Source of the DNA: Bacillota bacterium
GTDB lineage: Bacteria > Bacillota > DTU025 > MWDF01
Length of the DNA: 42,291 bases
Reading direction: 5' to 3'
Assembly (NCBI GenBank): GCA_029565935.1
Contig: JAKQNF010000027.1
Coordinates: 70,905 to 113,195 of the forward strand
Position 1 is the first letter of the stretch. Each line of letters begins with the position of its first letter. Below the pieces are notes generated by a model. It had not been told where the DNA came from and did no database searches. It worked only from the letters and a program-made list of their open reading frames with translations. Positions 7,921-42,291 of this stretch are shown here, in pieces. Both the position numbers and the translations under genes were made by a program.

Positions 7921-8568
7921 TCAGATCATCGATCCTTTGTAGTCTACCTTGACCTTCTTAAACCACACATCCCCGCCGTAACTATAACCATAAAGGCCTA
8001 TGTAATACTTGTCGCTTCTGCACTCCTTGGAAACGAACTTTGCGATCCTATAGCCGTTGAGGCTTATCACATAATAATCGCCCGTCTTGCTCAGCTTCCA
8101 AACATTATCACCTTTCCTTACAATATTTGGTATCGGGCCGAATCCACCTGCGACCTCTGTTCTTCTATCGGGTCCCTCGTCAGTCACCATCAAGGATTCT
8201 CCATCGTCATCGGTGCCGATATTCTCGAAGCAGCTGAAAATCATGTTGTCAGGTTCCCAAAACTGCCCGTCGCATATGTAGCACTCGAAGTAGGCGCAAT
8301 TCGAAGCATCGGTGTCCAAAAAAAGGTCCACAGTCACGGTGAAATCGCCCGTAAAAGCCACAGGAGAGCAGACTGAATGATTGTCCAGTTTCAGTCCCAT
8401 GTCGGTTACCAACGTTGCCGAACCGTCATCGTATTCCTCGTGCACCCAATCTTCAGTCTCGGATGCCGTAGCGAAGTCGAAGATCCATGTCTCCGTCTTG
8501 CCACAACCTGCACATGCCAAAACCAATGCTATCGCCACAATCGTAACCGCAAGGCGCCTTTTAAGCAA
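7921..8568 (-). CDS. Lineage-specific lipoprotein, family copy 1
   Basis: The 215-residue protein has a signal peptide ending in LACAGC with the lipidation Cys at residue 22 (C19 is a less likely alternative). The start is TTG at 8566-8568, behind GGGGGTG. After the Cys comes KTETWIFDF, then an acidic segment with EDWVHEEY. A beta-rich region follows with FTGDFTVTVDLFL, and then the family signature IPNIVRKGDN...LSKTGDYY...LNG. The end is WFKKVKVDYKG. The pattern suggests a single jelly-roll (concanavalin/LamG-like) domain on the cell surface; this fold is inferred, not proven. Four paralogs occur further right in the window. No enzymatic motif was seen. It stands alone between dpaL and the M29-like gene. 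Confidence 0.82.
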   Translation of the reverse strand: MLKRRLAVTIVAIALVLACAGCGKTETWIFDFATASETEDWVHEEYDDGSATLVTDMGLKLDNHSVCSPVAFTGDFTVTVDLFLDTDASNCAYFECYICDGQFWEPDNMIFSCFENIGTDDDGESLMVTDEGPDRRTEVAGGFGPIPNIVRKGDNVWKLSKTGDYYVISLNGYRIAKFVSKECRSDKYYIGLYGYSYGGDVWFKKVKVDYKGSMI

Positions 8569-28528: not shown

Positions 28529-29179
28529 TTACAATACGGGGCCGTCGGTGACATCCCCGCTATATTTCACCTCTATGTTCTTGATCGTTATGTCTCCGCC
28601 GTTCTCGCCGGTGAATATGGTGACATAGTTGCTAAGGCCTGCGAAATGTTCCAGTGTAATCGTCCTGAGCTTGGTCCCGTTCATGAACATGGTGAACTGG
28701 TTTCCGGTCTTGACCATTTTGAGCGTATTGCTACCGTCATACCTGATGCCGGGGACTTGCTCATATCTCTCGTAGTCTATATAACCGGTCAGATCGCTGT
28801 AGTCCTCGATTTCCCAACCTTCGGACTCAGGATCCCCCAGGCACCAGAAATCCGCGTAAAGATAATTTTCGCCATCCCATAGGATATCGTCTTCGATTCC
28901 AACCTCCAGCCTCGCATTGTTATCGACGTCCACACTGAGCAGGAAATCGACGATTACCGTCATATCTCCGCTGAATGAGATAGGCGTAGTGATGTTGACA
29001 TGGCTCATGCTCAAGCCGTCAACGGTGAACTCGTATGCTCCGTAATTCTCTACATACCAGTCATTGATATCCGCTTCAGGATCAGAAAAATCGTACGACC
29101 AGGTCTTGCTGAGACAGCCGGAAAGAAGAGCAGCGATCAGTACAACGGCTGCCATTGCGATAATGCGGGCCTTTTTCAT
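28529..29179 (-). CDS. Lineage-specific lipoprotein, family copy 2
   Basis: The 216-residue protein has signal LLSGC with Cys at residue 22. The mature start is LSKTWSYDFSDPEADINDWYVENY. It has the family mid-region ISFSGDMTVIVDFLLSVD and the signature VPGIRYDGSN...KTGNQFTMFMNG. The end is IKNIEVKYSGD. ATG 29179 follows AAGGAGG. An acidic, Asp/Glu/Tyr-rich composition fits an extracellular carbohydrate- or protein-binding domain. It stands alone between a terminator and a 350-bp intergenic gap. Confidence 0.85.
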   Translation of the reverse strand: MKKARIIAMAAVVLIAALLSGCLSKTWSYDFSDPEADINDWYVENYGAYEFTVDGLSMSHVNITTPISFSGDMTVIVDFLLSVDVDNNARLEVGIEDDILWDGENYLYADFWCLGDPESEGWEIEDYSDLTGYIDYERYEQVPGIRYDGSNTLKMVKTGNQFTMFMNGTKLRTITLEHFAGLSNYVTIFTGENGGDITIKNIEVKYSGDVTDGPVL

Positions 29180-35191: not shown

Positions 35192-35842
35192 TTATGGCCT
35201 GGCCTCGTACGTTCCTGAATAGGTGAACTTTACGCTGGTGAAAAGAAGCTTGGGTGAATCCTGGACGGCGTATATTATCGGGAAAGAATATACTAGGTCA
35301 TAATGCTCAAGCATGTATTCGCATAGGAATATTCCGTTAAAATACGCCCTGATCGTATCGCCGTTCTTGGAGAGCCTATAGGTGTTAAGGCCATGTCTCC
35401 TTATCGCGGGTATATGGTCCAAAGCCAAGAAAGTGCTGAAGTCCCCGCCGTTTATCTCCGTCATGTGCAAGCTTTCTGAAGCAGGATTCCCTAAGGAATC
35501 CAAGTACAGCATGATATGCTGCATCGTATACATTCCCGTTCCATCGCCTAACCCGATCCAGGCTTTGTTGACGGTGTCGACCTCGTCCGCATTCAGGAGG
35601 AAGACTACGGTCAACGTGAAATCCCCGCTGAACCCATACGGGCCTATCGCCCTGTAGTAGTTTAAGAACAGACCCTCGCCATATAGGTTGACGTTGCCGG
35701 GACCACCTCCGAAAGATTCTATGTCCCAGTCGTTTACGTCGTACACCTTAGTGAAGTCGACTGACCAGGTCTCATCACATCCTGCCATGCCGATTAGCAG
35801 GACCAGTAGCGCAAGGATGATAGCCAGTCGAGTGAGCTTCAT
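35192..35842 (-). CDS. Lineage-specific lipoprotein, family copy 3
   Basis: The 216-residue product starts at ATG 35842 with GGGGGTGAT upstream; the longer frame from 35896 adds an unsupported 18 residues. Signal IGMAGC puts Cys at residue 22. The mature end begins DETWSVDFTKVYDVNDWDIESF. The +2 residue is Asp, which in E. coli keeps lipoproteins in the inner membrane; whether this rule holds here is unknown. FSGDFTLTVVFLLNADE and IPAIRRHGLN...LSKNGDTIRAYFNG identify the family. The end is FTSVKFTYSGT. Confidence 0.85.
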   Translation of the reverse strand: MKLTRLAIILALLVLLIGMAGCDETWSVDFTKVYDVNDWDIESFGGGPGNVNLYGEGLFLNYYRAIGPYGFSGDFTLTVVFLLNADEVDTVNKAWIGLGDGTGMYTMQHIMLYLDSLGNPASESLHMTEINGGDFSTFLALDHIPAIRRHGLNTYRLSKNGDTIRAYFNGIFLCEYMLEHYDLVYSFPIIYAVQDSPKLLFTSVKFTYSGTYEARP

Positions 35843-36202
35843 GATATCACCCCCGGCATGGTATTCTACGATTTTCAAATATTTCCTTTCGTTCAATTTA
35901 TCCGTGCCACTAACCGTTGAACCTGCTTAACGATAACCACACCAGTGGTCGTTGCTTGATTCGTCAATGCGTAAAGGATTACCGGTATCCGCATATTGAG
36001 TCCTTTTACTGTTGTTCCTGATGAACGGCATGGTCGGTTAAGTCCGGTAATCCAGTGAATCAAACGATGCATGGCATGTGGATAGTCAAGTATCGATCCT
36101 GCTGGTCCACGCCTGAATGTGGAGCCCGATCCACCCGGCAGGCTAGAACTCAACCTACTAAAGGCCAGGATCATTACATATATGCGATATTGGGTCGCGA
36201 TT
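35843..36202. other. Intergenic region with nested long-range inverted repeats
   Basis: TTGATTC (35956-35962) and GGATTACCGG (35976-35985) are repeated inverted as CCGGTAATCC (36044-36053) and GAATCAA (36057-36063). ACCAC/GTGGT (35936-35940/35945-35949) is a short hairpin beside them. No ORF was supported. A structured leader RNA or small RNA is possible. Confidence 0.45.
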
Positions 36203-36618: not shown

Positions 36619-37287
36619 CTACCTAAGTATCTGCTCCCCGCTGAACTCCATCTCCATCCGCTTGAATATCAACGAATAAGTGCTCGAGATGTCCGCATGC
36701 TGCCATCCCCAGAGGACCGGAATGAAAAGGTCGACATCATATTCGGTCAACGACAAGTTAGAAGCTAGCAACGTGCCGTTCAGTACGTACTTGAAGCGTC
36801 CATTGCGCCTTTCTATCTCCAGCTTATTGGGCCCGTTATTTACGATGCCAGGTATCGGGGACGTAGGGCCGACTATAGGAGTCATTAAACCATCCATGAT
36901 GTAGAAGCCCTCTTCATCAGAACCCATACCGTAAAGGTTTATTCCGGTCACAAGAGGCTCTTCTGCGATCTCGGAGTAAAGAAATATGTGCGCAACCGCG
37001 ATGTCCGGGTCCGCTACTTGCAGGTTGAAATCAACCGTCCATTTGAAGTCCCCGGTATATGAATGAGGGGCTACAGCATGGTAGTACTTAAGGACGAGCC
37101 CTTTCGCCGTATGTTCATAGAAAGAATCTCCTGGACTGGCACTCGCTATCATCTCCCAGTCCCCGTCGCTCCTTAAGAGGTCTTCTTCGGTAGTAAAATC
37201 AAATACGTACATTTTGCTGCTGCAACCACCTATAACTACCAAGACGATGAGCGTTAGTATCATTAAAACGTTTCGCATCCTTACCAT
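36619..37287 (-). CDS. Lineage-specific lipoprotein, family copy 4
   Basis: The 222-residue product starts at ATG 37287 with GGAGGAG upstream. Signal VIGGC has Cys at residue 22. It is the most divergent member: SSKMYVFDFTTEEDLLRSDGDWEMI replaces the usual TWS...DW. YTGDFKWTVDFNLQVAD and IPGIVNNGPN...RRNGRFKYVLNG keep the signature, and it ends with MEMEFSG. It is divergent from copy 5, separated by 197 bp that must contain both promoters. Confidence 0.83.
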   Translation of the reverse strand: MVRMRNVLMILTLIVLVVIGGCSSKMYVFDFTTEEDLLRSDGDWEMIASASPGDSFYEHTAKGLVLKYYHAVAPHSYTGDFKWTVDFNLQVADPDIAVAHIFLYSEIAEEPLVTGINLYGMGSDEEGFYIMDGLMTPIVGPTSPIPGIVNNGPNKLEIERRNGRFKYVLNGTLLASNLSLTEYDVDLFIPVLWGWQHADISSTYSLIFKRMEMEFSGEQILR

Positions 37288-37484
37288 GATCGCTCCTCCA
37301 ATCCCCATCTATTTATGGCTATTGATTCTATCCCGCCATATGGTTTCCTCCAATTATCGAAATATTTGGAAGGTATACTATCCATTTTATAGAATATCGA
37401 AGCAACAACGGCGGAATGCCACGACGGCCATATAATAATTGCCCATCCTAATTTTGAGAATTCGTTGTTTGGGAGGATTCGGCA

Positions 37485-38123
37485 ATGAGGTATAAGAGGA
37501 TATTAATGTCGCTCATCGTTCTGGTCCTTTGTGTACAGCTTTCGGGATGCGTGAAGACATGGTCGGTAACCTTCAACGGCTCCGAGGACGTAATCGGCTG
37601 GGATATTAATCATATGAATAGTGACAATGATAACTGGGCGATCTCCGAGCTGGGTTTTGAGCTCGATGGTTATTACGCCATAGGGCCTTATTCCTTCACG
37701 ACGGCTGACTGTACCCTTACTTTGGTCTTCGATCTGCAGTGTGACGGATCTAATACGGCATATATGTCCGTGGAGTTCGCGGACGGCAACCAACTGATAG
37801 TGAATCGTCTGAGATTTGCGCTAAGGGATATGGGCAACGTATCCGCAGAGGCTTATTGGGTAGATGACGGAAGTGGAAGCTTGGTTACAGGAGCGACGAT
37901 ACCTGCGCTAGACCACGACGGTGAGAACAAGATAGAACTTATCAAAAAAGGGAACTACCTAACAGTGAAGCTTAATTCCATCGTGATATATAACGGCAAT
38001 TATAGTTATCCACTCGGATACGTAGTCCCTTACCTGGCATGCTACATGGTAGACGCAAGTGCTGCGACATTATACTTTAAGAGCATCAAGGTGCAGTGTG
38101 ACGGAGAGATAATCGCCAGGTAG
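37485..38123 (+). CDS. Lineage-specific lipoprotein, family copy 5
   Basis: The 212-residue product has signal LSGC with Cys at residue 22, then VKTWSVTFNGSEDVIGWDINH. It keeps the IPALDHDGENKIEL...KKGNYLTVKLN signature, with Ser in place of the Gly after LN, and ends with FKSIKVQCDG. GGGAGG precedes the ATG. It overlaps the end of the sigma region 2 ORF on the opposite strand by 38 bp. A hairpin at 38235-38263, just past its stop, probably terminates it. Confidence 0.85.
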   Translation: MRYKRILMSLIVLVLCVQLSGCVKTWSVTFNGSEDVIGWDINHMNSDNDNWAISELGFELDGYYAIGPYSFTTADCTLTLVFDLQCDGSNTAYMSVEFADGNQLIVNRLRFALRDMGNVSAEAYWVDDGSGSLVTGATIPALDHDGENKIELIKKGNYLTVKLNSIVIYNGNYSYPLGYVVPYLACYMVDASAATLYFKSIKVQCDGEIIAR

Positions 38124-38565
38124 GGATACAGATGCTATGACCAGCGCTTGTATGCTTTTGTTCAGAAAGTTCATGCACCCGCCTATGAGGCCATCTTTCG
38201 TTAGCTGAAAACCAGGCAGTTAAATCCGCTACGAGAGAGACCGCCCTTGCTAGGAGGTCTCTCGAGGTTCTCTTTATGTGCCGATTTAGTGCGCTGCAGC
38301 ATATCTTCCTCATATACACTCTTGGCTCCGCTGCTGCGTTCAGCTTCGGCCAGGCATTCCATGCTGCAATAGCACAAGTCTGAAGAAGGTCTTCTCTTTC
38401 CAGTCCCTTAATCTCGTTCTCTCTTCTAGTACGGGCTACCTCAGCCTCGATGACGTCTTGGTGCCTGGCAAGAAGACCTTCAAAATCACTCTTAGGTTGT
38501 TCATCATCTACTCTTTCACTTCCTATCCCCCCTATATAGGAGTCATCTTTTCGGGAAAATACCAA
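38086..38565 (-). CDS. Sigma-70 region 2-like protein (split sigma, C-gene)
   Basis: The 159-residue frame begins with TTG at 38565. Residues 27-105 match ECF-type sigma region 2: FEGLLARHQDVIEAEVARTR, LEREDLLQTCAIAAWNAWPKL and YMRKICCSALNRHIKRTSRD. No region 4 follows; the last 50 residues are unlike any sigma. The adjacent upstream gene encodes the missing region 4. This resembles the RsoA part of the Bacillus subtilis SigO-RsoA two-subunit sigma. The 3' end overlaps lipoprotein 5, and the terminator-like hairpin at 38235-38263 is inside the ORF. A frame error near the 3' end cannot be excluded. Confidence 0.6.
   Translation of the reverse strand: MVFSRKDDSYIGGIGSERVDDEQPKSDFEGLLARHQDVIEAEVARTRRENEIKGLEREDLLQTCAIAAWNAWPKLNAAAEPRVYMRKICCSALNRHIKRTSRDLLARAVSLVADLTAWFSANERWPHRRVHELSEQKHTSAGHSICIPTWRLSLRHTAP
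38235..38263 (+). terminator. Probable terminator of lipoprotein 5
   Basis: GAGAGACC (38235-38242) pairs with GGTCTCTC (38256-38263); rightward it is followed by GAGGTTCTCTTTATG. It lies about 110 bases past the lipoprotein 5 stop and within the sigma region 2 frame on the other strand. Confidence 0.55.
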
Positions 38566-38571
38566 AAGAAC

Positions 38572-38769
38572 TCATGCAATTATTTTCGCAAGCTCCTCAA
38601 TAGTGAGCATCAAATTGTAGTGTACAGCCTGTTGCGTAATGCCCATACGCTGACCTATTTGCCTTTGTGTCTCATTGTACACATATCGACGCAATATCTC
38701 CTGGAGGTGTTCTTGGAGCTCTTTTGCGCCTTCTCGAGAATAATCATGTTGCATATTTCCCGGGTCCAT
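38572..38769 (-). CDS. Sigma-70 region 4-like HTH protein (split sigma, N-gene)
   Basis: The 65-residue product is almost all one helix-turn-helix unit: LQEILRRYVYNETQRQIGQRM then GITQQAVHYNLMLTIEELAKII. This matches sigma region 4.2 and would recognise the -35 element. Its start is weak: ATG 38769 and an internal ATG at residue 6 lack a clear ribosome site. The stop lies six bases before the TTG of the region 2 gene, so the two are co-transcribed. The order (region 4 then region 2) agrees with the sigO-rsoA arrangement as I recall it. Confidence 0.55.
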   Translation of the reverse strand: MDPGNMQHDYSREGAKELQEHLQEILRRYVYNETQRQIGQRMGITQQAVHYNLMLTIEELAKIIA

Positions 38770-38942
38770 CGGGCATCAGCTTCGGTTTGGAGAATAATCT
38801 TTGTGGCTGTCCAAGAAGCAGAAGTAGCTGAGGCATCGACCCTTCGCCAGGATCTCAAGCACTCGGCTACTATAGACATATTCTTTTTGCTATTGGTATT
38901 AATCCCCTGGTTTTCGCTAAAGGCAAGGTGGATTTCTGTCCT

Positions 38943-38978
38943 CATGCCCCCAGCTTCACTGTTTCACATAGGGGCATG
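38943..38978 (-). terminator. Hairpin downstream of the HNH gene
   Basis: CATGCCCC (38943-38950) and GGGGCATG (38971-38978) form an 8-bp stem 23 bases beyond the HNH stop. There is no U-tract, so the assignment is tentative. Confidence 0.35.
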
Positions 38979-39000
38979 TAAAGAGTGAATATCTGATCTC

Positions 39001-39852
39001 TTATTCATCTTTCTGCTTATTCATAGAATCCGTTCTACGTTCGTTTAAAGCTGAGATCTGACCCATCCATTCATCGATAGTTGTGTGCCATTCCGTCCAA
39101 TGCCGAGCTCTTTTCGATAAATCAACTACTAAAGAATCAAGGATCTCAATGATTTTTTCTTCCTTCGTCCCTCCACTTTTTAGAAGATCCACAAATTCCT
39201 CAAGAATGTCCATGCCTCTTCTGTCGTTCCAGTAATTAAATCTATTTCTGCAGATCCCCCTGATATAGTAGAGTTTTGCCGTTATTGGTCCTTTTTTATT
39301 ATTAACTATGATACCTCCGATTTTATTAATGAACTTTTCCACAGTATCATCTATTAAAACCCCATCGTTATCGTAACGTAGATACTGTTTCTTGCTTATG
39401 TTTATTGCATCAAGGATTTCTTCCATATTGAATTTACTTACCAGCTTCGATATAGTCTGCTTTCCAGTTTCAGACAAGGTATATGGAGAAATAATTTCAT
39501 GTATACGAGCTATAAGCATATCTACAGATTGTTCCTCTATTCCTTCTAGTCCCTTTCTCCACTCGAATAGCATCTTTAACTGTTCTCTTCTTGCTTGCAG
39601 GTCCTCCATCTGTTTTCTTTGCTTTTCCAACGTGGAGCAATCATCAAGTGCTTTATAGGATTTCCCAAGATTGCATTCTTCGCAACTTGTTACTAGATTC
39701 ATGATATCGTTGGTGCCATTTCTTGCTACTGCTACTATATGATCTACATGCAGAACTACGTCTGGAGCCTTTCTTCCGCAGTACTGGCAAGTGAATTTAT
39801 CTCGCTTAAAAACTTCAAACCTTAATTTTTTGCTTATCGATTTTCTAGACAA
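39001..39852 (-). CDS. HNH endonuclease
   Basis: The 283-residue protein starts at TTG 39852 with GGAGGGG five bases upstream; the frame to GTG 39876 covers that site. The N-terminal HNH domain (about 5-65) has FEVFKRDKFTCQYCGRKAP, VVLHVDHIVAVARNGTND and LVTSCEECNLGKS, giving two zinc CxxC pairs and the catalytic DH...N. The remainder is charged and helical with no known domain (about 70-283). Its sequence is AT-rich relative to the left part of the window, as is its neighbour. It probably belongs to an acquired cassette with the PIN-like gene; a defence role is inferred, not shown. Confidence 0.9.
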   Translation of the reverse strand: MSRKSISKKLRFEVFKRDKFTCQYCGRKAPDVVLHVDHIVAVARNGTNDIMNLVTSCEECNLGKSYKALDDCSTLEKQRKQMEDLQARREQLKMLFEWRKGLEGIEEQSVDMLIARIHEIISPYTLSETGKQTISKLVSKFNMEEILDAINISKKQYLRYDNDGVLIDDTVEKFINKIGGIIVNNKKGPITAKLYYIRGICRNRFNYWNDRRGMDILEEFVDLLKSGGTKEEKIIEILDSLVVDLSKRARHWTEWHTTIDEWMGQISALNERRTDSMNKQKDE

Positions 39853-40074
39853 TTTTGCCCCTCCATTGATTTCCACATGATTGAAGAGGTCGCTGAGTAT
39901 TATCCACTGCTAAAGAATTTAAAACCTACTACTTACGGTATCACATTTTACGTAATAAACAGCACTCCGCTATCGCCCTAGCCGCTTTCCTAAACACAGG
40001 TTTAACCTGTAGAGCGTTTCTGGGATGTCCAAGAAATAAAAGTAGCCAATGAATTTGTTGAAAATCTGATATAG

Positions 40075-42060
40075 CTACTTGATCCACTTCAGAATCGTAG
40101 TTTCTACAATTTTCGTGAACTTTCTTGGTAAGAGAACTCCTATTACTGTTATCAAAGTAAACAACGCACGGCAATAATTCCCAAACAAGGGAATATCGAT
40201 ATTCCAATTACCAACTACAGTGTAATATGTTGCTATAATTGCTATTATCATCCATACTATATACACTACCCATGCCATAATGTTTGCTAAATGCTTCTTT
40301 TCCTTCTCTGATACTTCAATTTCATTTTTGAGCTGCTCTATTGTTGCGCGATCCTTGTTTTTCTGTAGTTCCTTATCTATAGCAATTCTCGTTTTCTCTT
40401 CCTCTGATGCTTTCAACTCTGCTTCCTTCTTGGAAACTATTTTATTCATTTCCTCTTCTTTTTCTGCTCCAATGGCCTTTTTTACTCTTTCAAGTATCTC
40501 TGGTATCTCCTGCTCAGTGAGACCAGTTTCATCATTTAGAGTATATTTCGTAATTTCATCAAGAGTTACCGGACTATATTTTAATATAGCAATATCATTT
40601 TCACTATACTCACCTGTCTTTTCTATCTCATCAACTATCTTTACGAGTCTGTCAAGTAATCCTTTTTTCGGTTTCAACATCGCGCAAGAGAATGCAATTA
40701 GCTCTTCTTGGGGCAACAATGGTACTTCTAATGGTGCCTTTAGCCAAGCGATATTAGAAATACTATAATGCAGTATACAACTACGAATTGTGCAAGACTC
40801 TCCATAATCAGGACCATACTTACCTACGATTTCTACTAGCCCCGGATTGGCGGTTATTAGTATTGCTTTACAAGTTTCAATGCAATCAACATTTATGGTA
40901 CCTCGTATAGTGTTAATAAGGTAAATTGACTTGATATCATCTTCAAGCGCTTCTTCGTTACGATAGTTAATATTTTTTAGGGCGCTTTTTAAATTGTTAT
41001 AATCGAGAAGATCCCATTTTTCATGTGTCTTATCATCAATAATAATTCCATATTTTTGTAAGTAGTCATCAATTCTAGCAATATCAGAAACTAAACCAGA
41101 TCTTGTTTTCCCTCTTCTTCTATAATTAACAACTACGTCCATTGGATCATCATAATTACTAAAGTTGTTGACTGCACCGTTAAGTACTCTATTGAGTTCT
41201 CTTCTTGTGTGCGAGAATATTTTTACTTCACCTTTTAACTTCTGTATTAATCTAAGCATGCTTTGACATAGTTTACTTTTAGCGTCGTTTGAAAAACCCA
41301 GTAATTGTAATACTACAGGTCCATCAAGATAGAAGACAACATCCCGAAAGTCATTTTTAGGCATAACTTGGGTGAGCGTTTCAATAAGACAATAATGCAT
41401 AAATCCTACTAATATGCTTCTGAAATTGTTATATTCAACTGGTTTTTTCTCACTTATGTGCGCAAGGTATTGAGCAATTATCACCTCATCCTCACTCATG
41501 CTATTTTCATCATAATTTAAACCCAAATCTCCATTAGTGCTAATATGAAGGCATGCAATTGAGAACTTGTTCAGAAATGACATTAATGATGCCTTTGCCT
41601 TATCGATAGGCAATGTCCTATTTAGTTCTGCCTTTGCATACTCACTTAAATCATCAGTTAAAGCATTCCATGTTCTTATCGCTTCTCTAAGATCCTGGTC
41701 CGAAATTGCGTCTGGTATATTGGATAAAAGCTTATATGTTTGGGATGAACGCTCGATTTCAACAATCTTCTTTTTCAATAAAGAATTGAGAATTGTAACT
41801 ATTATTGAATCAGCTAGTTCTAGCCCATACTTGTTTTTTACTCGAGAGACAATCTCGATATTGTTCATTGTTTTTCCTCTATTATCTATCAACACCTGGA
41901 GTACATAAGGTTCAAAGCTACTAATTAATGTGCTGTTATCATCAATTTGAATCTTCAACATGCTCATAGCGATTATCTTTTTCTCGTCGAGCATAATATC
42001 CATCCCTAATACAAGTAATGTAGTAGGAAAATTCTCTTCATTGATTATATCTACCTTCAC
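40075..42060 (-). CDS. Membrane-anchored PIN-like nuclease with winged-helix N-terminus
   Basis: The 661-residue protein (GTG start at 42060; ATG at 42003 is an alternative, and neither has a strong site) is AT-rich in codon use. Residues about 45-115 look like a winged helix. A PIN-like domain follows (about 238-415) with acidic positions D246 (FYLDGP), E288 (HTRRELNR), D374/D375 (LEDDIKSIYLI) and N405 (LITANPG), a typical D-E-D-N/D set. A middle helical part precedes a charged coiled coil (about 530-590). Two TM helices (about 594-615 and 628-645) end the protein. No full-length family was recognised. The domain set suggests a toxin-like or defence effector held at the membrane. Confidence 0.7.
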   Translation of the reverse strand: MKVDIINEENFPTTLLVLGMDIMLDEKKIIAMSMLKIQIDDNSTLISSFEPYVLQVLIDNRGKTMNNIEIVSRVKNKYGLELADSIIVTILNSLLKKKIVEIERSSQTYKLLSNIPDAISDQDLREAIRTWNALTDDLSEYAKAELNRTLPIDKAKASLMSFLNKFSIACLHISTNGDLGLNYDENSMSEDEVIIAQYLAHISEKKPVEYNNFRSILVGFMHYCLIETLTQVMPKNDFRDVVFYLDGPVVLQLLGFSNDAKSKLCQSMLRLIQKLKGEVKIFSHTRRELNRVLNGAVNNFSNYDDPMDVVVNYRRRGKTRSGLVSDIARIDDYLQKYGIIIDDKTHEKWDLLDYNNLKSALKNINYRNEEALEDDIKSIYLINTIRGTINVDCIETCKAILITANPGLVEIVGKYGPDYGESCTIRSCILHYSISNIAWLKAPLEVPLLPQEELIAFSCAMLKPKKGLLDRLVKIVDEIEKTGEYSENDIAILKYSPVTLDEITKYTLNDETGLTEQEIPEILERVKKAIGAEKEEEMNKIVSKKEAELKASEEEKTRIAIDKELQKNKDRATIEQLKNEIEVSEKEKKHLANIMAWVVYIVWMIIAIIATYYTVVGNWNIDIPLFGNYCRALFTLITVIGVLLPRKFTKIVETTILKWIK

Positions 42061-42151: not shown

Positions 42152-42291
42152 TGTCAACGACGGCGAGAATTGACCCACCTAACGACGGAATTAATTGAGC
42201 CACCAAATCCTGTCAATTGAACCCGATCCTTTCCCTAAGGCGATAACTGTTACCACGAATATTGATGATCTGTGAGTGATGCAGCAGCCTG
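42152..42291. mobile_element. Terminal part of an IS21-family insertion sequence (truncated by window end)
   Basis: A TG-starting end, TGTCAACGACGGCG at 42152, is followed by repeated subterminal blocks AATTGACCCACC (42168-42179) and AATTGAGCCACC (42193-42204), and a shorter AATTGAACCC. Multiple internal repeats near a TG...CA end are typical of IS21. The end of an IstB-like gene overlaps on the minus strand. Confidence 0.75.
42213..42291 (-). CDS. istB: IstB-like helper ATPase, C-terminal end (partial)
   Basis: Read leftward from the window edge, the frame encodes RLLHHSQIINIRGNSY then RLRERIGFN and TGA at 42213-42215. This matches the C-terminal end of IS21 IstB proteins (DRLLHH...I.G.SYRL). 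Only 26 codons are present, so it is partial. It lies inside the IS21 end described above. Confidence 0.75.
   Translation of the reverse strand, partial: RLLHHSQIINIRGNSYRLRERIGFN

Follow-up and report, generated by a model that had tools for sequence, protein, structure and literature searches.

The window, a stretch of 42,291 nucleotides at the end of contig C6 of a 1.8-Mb draft genome in which four other region 2 genes are present, contains two neighboring minus-strand open reading frames (ORFs) that each resemble a different half of a sigma factor (Table 1). According to the sequence and its translations, the ORF resembling sigma region 4 (r4) lies upstream and the ORF with region 2 (r2) lies downstream. 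Both share one reading frame, and two sense codons separate the TGA of r4 from the TTG at which r2 begins. The initial annotation had described a 65-residue region 4-like gene followed after six bases by a 159-residue region 2-like gene, next to two members of a lipoprotein family. The ORFs and their Pfam and NCBIfam matches bear out the first part of this description, and the two lipoprotein-family neighbors (37485-38123 on the plus strand and 36619-37308 on the minus strand) are real.

Table 1. Features at and around the r4-r2 pair in the window (G001 is a sister genome of the same genus)
Feature	Coordinates	Strand	Remarks
r4, sigma region 4-like helix-turn-helix ORF	38572..38769	-	65 codons, ATG to TGA; Sigma70_r4 and sigma70-ECF matches
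Spacer, r4 stop codon to r2 TTG	38566..38571	-	Six bases; from sequence and translations
r2, ORF with complete sigma region 2	38086..38565	-	159 codons, TTG to TGA; Sigma70_r2 match, AlphaFold2 model, alignment
Tail-to-tail overlap of r2 ORF and lipoprotein gene	38086..38123		G001 homology ends at 38123
Lipoprotein-family gene	37485..38123	+	Backbone gene of the chromosome, outside the pair; its G001 ortholog is 65% identical
Lipoprotein-family members in the window	7921-8568, 28529-29179, 35192-35896, 36619-37308, 37485-38123		
HNH endonuclease gene	39001..39876	-	Pfam HNH, E = 1.3e-13; low GC; upstream of r4
661-codon gene	40075..42060	-	No Pfam family; GC 34%
IS21 istB-like gene end (C-terminal)	42214..42291	-	Pfam IstB_IS21, E = 1.5e-5; at the contig break

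The pair sits where conserved chromosomal DNA gives way to inserted DNA. From 30.7 to 38.1 kb, the window is collinear with contig C19 of G001, and this homology stops exactly at the stop codon of the lipoprotein gene. Between the same neighbors, G001 carries a transporter, a small 128-amino-acid protein, and another lipoprotein gene within about 3.3 kb, and at that site it has neither the sigma pair nor the HNH and 661-amino-acid genes. Both sigma halves are absent from the sister genomes G001 and G002; together with the low-GC genes beyond them, they lie in DNA that both genomes are missing, and the GC content of the window drops to 34% beyond 38.5 kb. Relatives of the HNH endonuclease, covering most of its length, were found on at least 80 viral contigs and, at about 39 to 42% identity, on a few Escherichia coli and Salmonella plasmids. 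The 661-amino-acid protein ends in two C-terminal stretches that look like predicted membrane segments, and its distant relatives (about 22% identical) are hypothetical proteins on plasmids of Enterococcus and others; as a lead to related elements, it returned no relatives among viral contigs. An insertion sequence probably broke the assembly at the contig end.

In the gene order of G001, the right-hand end of the window contig faces the integrase end of contig C31. The match of C31 to G001 extends as far as a tRNA-Arg(TCT) gene, behind which a tyrosine integrase gene is cut short by the end of the contig (locus L104, 2859-3423, where the truncated integrase directly follows the tRNA). An integrase gene thus adjoins a tRNA gene, as in tRNA-integrated elements. 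Because the other side of the gap in the sister's order holds both this tRNA-Arg and the truncated integrase, the sigma halves probably lie on an element integrated between tRNA-Arg and the lipoprotein gene, with the pair at its far edge. No direct repeat of the tRNA-Arg 3' end (attR) was found in 37900-39100 or elsewhere in the assembly, the search returning a single site with three mismatches, on C31, and the gap between C31 and C6 may hide such a repeat. Since the repeat was not found at the edge, we infer rather than observe the element boundary and the membership of both contig ends in one element. A 24-bp repeat at 38805 and 40023 was considered as an attachment or cassette site and rejected, having no further copy in the genome; a protein-level match in another genome, at L016, falls within a transporter gene region and looks like chance.

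The lipoprotein genes had been suggested as possible targets of the pair, a suggestion that does not fit their distribution. The family, which has no Pfam or NCBIfam match above cut-off, has members dispersed among the contigs (18 matches each in this genome and in G001, 13 in G002), and the order of the three lipoprotein genes nearest the pair is kept in G001, which lacks both sigma halves. Nor did the shared promoter elements that the suggestion called for appear: no common element or long word was seen upstream of five copies, with the upstream stretch of the 7921-8568 copy taken at its TTG, perhaps not the true start. The lipoprotein genes are older than the pair, and it is unlikely that they depend on it.

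The identification of r4 and r2 draws on profile matches and predicted structures. r4 matches Pfam Sigma70_r4 (E = 3.2e-5; 23.8 bits against a cut-off of 24.1) and NCBIfam sigma70-ECF (E = 1.3e-5), and as a query it retrieves full-length sigma factors from further genomes in the phylum; by sequence it matches a sigma region 4-like domain. r2 matches Pfam Sigma70_r2 (E = 1.8e-4; 21.6 bits against a cut-off of 24) and NCBIfam SigE-fam_strep (E = 4.1e-5). Each Pfam match taken alone is modest, slightly below its curated cut-off; as adjacent and complementary matches, the two are anything but modest. Ten residue-shuffled copies gave zero sigma matches and nothing below an E-value of 0.009. A single-sequence AlphaFold2 model of the region 2 part, made with no alignment, reached a mean pLDDT of 83.5, and when it was compared with the PDB by Foldseek, sigma factors took all of the first 21 places, with E. 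coli sigma-E region 2 ranked first (probability 1.00; TM-scores 0.63/0.69), with weak E-values of 0.14 at best. Built from the sequence by itself with no sigma sequences supplied, this model independently supports the region 2 identity. The single-sequence model of r4 (confidence 86.4) consists of one long helix plus another, its first helices being fused, and matches helix-turn-helix proteins generally, including region 4 of SigF and SigB; it supports a helix-turn-helix rather than sigma region 4 specifically.

Aligned with sigma factors from this genome and from one relative, r2 shows a region 2 that is complete from 2.1 to 2.4. It has FEGLLARHQ in 2.1 and DLLQ in 2.2, with a T in place of the usual E, keeps the aromatic and basic positions of 2.3-2.4, and carries an 'SL' stretch of the kind that opens the linker in extracytoplasmic function (ECF) factors. 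ECF sigma factors (sigma-E and two 206-codon sigma genes of this genome) align with it along the whole length of region 2 at 13 to 25% identity, but in those proteins region 4 follows region 2, whereas here it is a separate gene upstream. ECF (group IV) factors join regions 2 and 4 in one protein; the r2 ORF ends without a region 4.

Other properties of r2 are less like those of an intact gene. The region 2 domain proper spans about 38490-38250, and the remaining C-terminal tail is probably not native. The coding signal fades from about residue 105-120, and over its last 38 bases the ORF overlaps the 3' end of the lipoprotein gene in antisense orientation. No Shine-Dalgarno sequence is visible ahead of the TTG, no alternative in-frame ATG, GTG, or TTG precedes the domain, and a purine-rich stretch, AGGGGGGATAGGAAG, precedes starts in another frame and not in that of r2. 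A hairpin at the end of the domain is unexceptional (z = -1.06). From r4 across the junction and along the r2 domain, the in-frame coding signal resembles that of the element genes, as judged by a codon model that was built on two element genes only and serves as a guide, not as proof. The weak start, the antisense tail, and the absent coding signal in the tail weaken the case for r2 as a gene.

We considered whether the two halves are a normal sigma gene split by one frameshift, the outcome that the initial annotation had named as fatal to its own interpretation. This is excluded: because region 4 comes before region 2, no frameshift can restore the normal order, the two ORFs already share a frame, and no region 4 remnant was found in any frame downstream of r2. 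A gene that may be split by frame does occur elsewhere in the phylum, in the opposite, normal order. At locus L198 (1091-1716, plus strand; genome G341, contig C1, around 326068-326238), a region 2-like HTH_16 match (E = 8.6e-5) lies in a 149-codon ORF, and behind it a second, overlapping frame contains region 4 (Sigma70_r4, E = 5.2e-9); the frames meet at an A-rich run, GAAAAAAAC. L198 is perhaps a sigma gene split by frame, via slippage, a frameshift, or decay. Separately, a 96-codon ORF in another frame of the window (38658-38945, minus strand) overlaps the 5' part of r4; its coding signal is ambiguous, and a G-rich stretch lies ahead of its ATG. This ORF could represent an earlier gene, or else the beginning of an r4 protein that was longer before a frameshift.

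Stand-alone phage regulators (L004-L006 and L065-L070) are the nearest relatives of r4, with 47 to 60% identity over the helix-turn-helix. Their helix-turn-helix is like that of r4, and most have an MGITQQAV core, but they are about 100 to 137 amino acids long with an extra N-terminal part, compared with the 65 amino acids of r4, and they are followed by an unrelated conserved gene rather than by the region 2 gene that r4 precedes here. No relatives of r2 were found in phages, plasmids, viral contigs, or 399 genomes of the phylum, nor, in a screen for close relatives only, in a genome collection. The apparent stand-alone region 2 matches in those 399 genomes that were inspected proved to be either full-length sigma factors or wrong-frame translations of other genes. 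A second r4-r2 pair was likewise not found in these searches, including the 399 genomes, in scans that were pattern based and detect close relatives only, so that distant pairs may exist.

In nearly all sigma factors, the domains that read the -10 and -35 elements are in one protein. We tentatively prefer the reading, at a little short of an even chance, that the pair is a two-subunit sigma factor of a mobile element. A single transcript would yield r4 and r2, with ribosomes reinitiating at r2 once they have terminated at the r4 stop. The r2 protein would dock on the beta' clamp helices and open the -10 element, the r4 protein would dock on the beta flap tip and read the -35 element, and together they would direct RNA polymerase to the element's own promoters rather than to the lipoprotein genes. 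We favor this reading because complementary halves lie six bases apart on one strand, because the region 2 fold is predicted from sequence alone and the domain is complete, because an element-like coding signal runs in frame through r4, the junction, and the r2 domain, and because the order is r4 then r2 in an inserted, low-GC setting near the integrase-bearing gap at tRNA-Arg. A precedent also counts in its favor, since in Bacillus subtilis SigO (sigma 4) and RsoA (sigma 2) are separate halves that cooperate at the oxdC promoter (PMC8103513, PMC10028694). Against it stand the lack of a second pair in the searches, the r2 start with no recognizable ribosome-binding site and the antisense tail with no coding signal, the retention of the 'SL' linker motif as in a truncated ordinary sigma factor, and the two Pfam scores under their cut-offs. 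A more specific version, which we regard as less likely than not, is that a second two-subunit sigma factor arose independently on the integrated element, with r4 derived from phage-type regulators and r2 from an ECF factor minus its region 4.

The main rival, which we consider somewhat less likely, is that the two ORFs are remnants at the edge of an insertion: r2 would be the 5' part of an ordinary full-length ECF-like sigma gene, truncated at the junction of inserted DNA and chromosome, r4 an independent phage-type helix-turn-helix regulator, and the two would not act jointly. In its favor, the 'SL' motif kept by r2 opens the linker to region 4 in full-length factors, and the r2 frame has lost its own stop and enters the lipoprotein gene exactly where G001 homology ends. 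A tail that lacks coding signal and a start that lacks a ribosome-binding site fit such debris as well, as does the fact that the closest r4 relatives stand alone with no region 2 behind them. Remnants would, however, make it a coincidence that two unrelated sigma-derived pieces lie six bases apart on one strand, and would leave unaccounted for two complete, uninterrupted domains and a coding signal that crosses the junction.

Stand-alone regulators like r4 are known in phages and occur among the relatives found here, and we give a small chance to the two proteins being active in unconnected roles, with r4 serving the element as a phage-type regulator and r2 competing with host sigma factors as an anti-sigma-like or core-binding protein. 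Such a division of labor leaves the neighboring complementary halves unexplained, and r2 keeps the promoter-facing part of region 2. Read-through of the TGA between the ORFs, giving one permuted protein with region 4 then region 2, would suit the shared frame, the two sense codons from stop to TTG, and the same-frame coding signal across the junction, but two neighboring genes share a frame one time in three, and we hold it to be highly improbable. Equally remote are chance ORFs with chance sigma similarity, to which the Pfam scores just under the curated cut-offs and the lack of close relatives could be fitted; complementary matches side by side, negative shuffles, and a region 2 fold obtained from a single sequence with no sigma sequences had already made this very unlikely.

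If the pair is a two-subunit sigma factor, it would be a further divided sigma factor, one that is carried by a mobile element and whose domains are small and complete, and it would offer a case in which to study how sigma factors become divided and whether halves can be swapped. If it is only debris at the edge of an insertion, it would show how split arrangements could begin.

Naturally divided sigma factors in the literature cited here are SigO-RsoA and the T4 gp55/gp33 pair. In the operon of SigO-RsoA (YvrI-YvrHa), the sigma 4 gene yvrI precedes the sigma 2 gene yvrHa (PMC8103513), and the system already serves as an AND gate (PMC10028694). The resemblance to SigO-RsoA proposed at the outset holds for the separate neighboring genes, on one strand and six bases apart, and for the reported sigO-rsoA order with region 4 first. 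It does not extend to size, neighborhood, or conservation. SigO is 22.5 kDa and RsoA 9.0 kDa (PMC10141391), so that SigO is far larger than the 65-amino-acid r4, whereas here r2 is the longer ORF; neither oxdC nor yvrL adjoins the window pair, which lies in an inserted-element setting; and the arrangement is not conserved in G001, G002, or the 399 genomes of the phylum. Membership in the SigO-RsoA system cannot be claimed from these sequences, the likeness being that of split halves and gene order. The description of the arrangement as rarely seen elsewhere is fair for pairs of the SigO-RsoA type; the T4 late transcription factors gp55/gp33 are also termed a split sigma (PMC2988020). As in the window pair, one protein has a region 2-like function and another a sigma 4-like function. 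T4 gp33, however, has no helix-turn-helix and does not read DNA, whereas r4 looks like a DNA-reading region 4, and the gp55 and gp33 genes are widely separated, with activation that depends on the sliding clamp, whereas the r4 and r2 genes adjoin.
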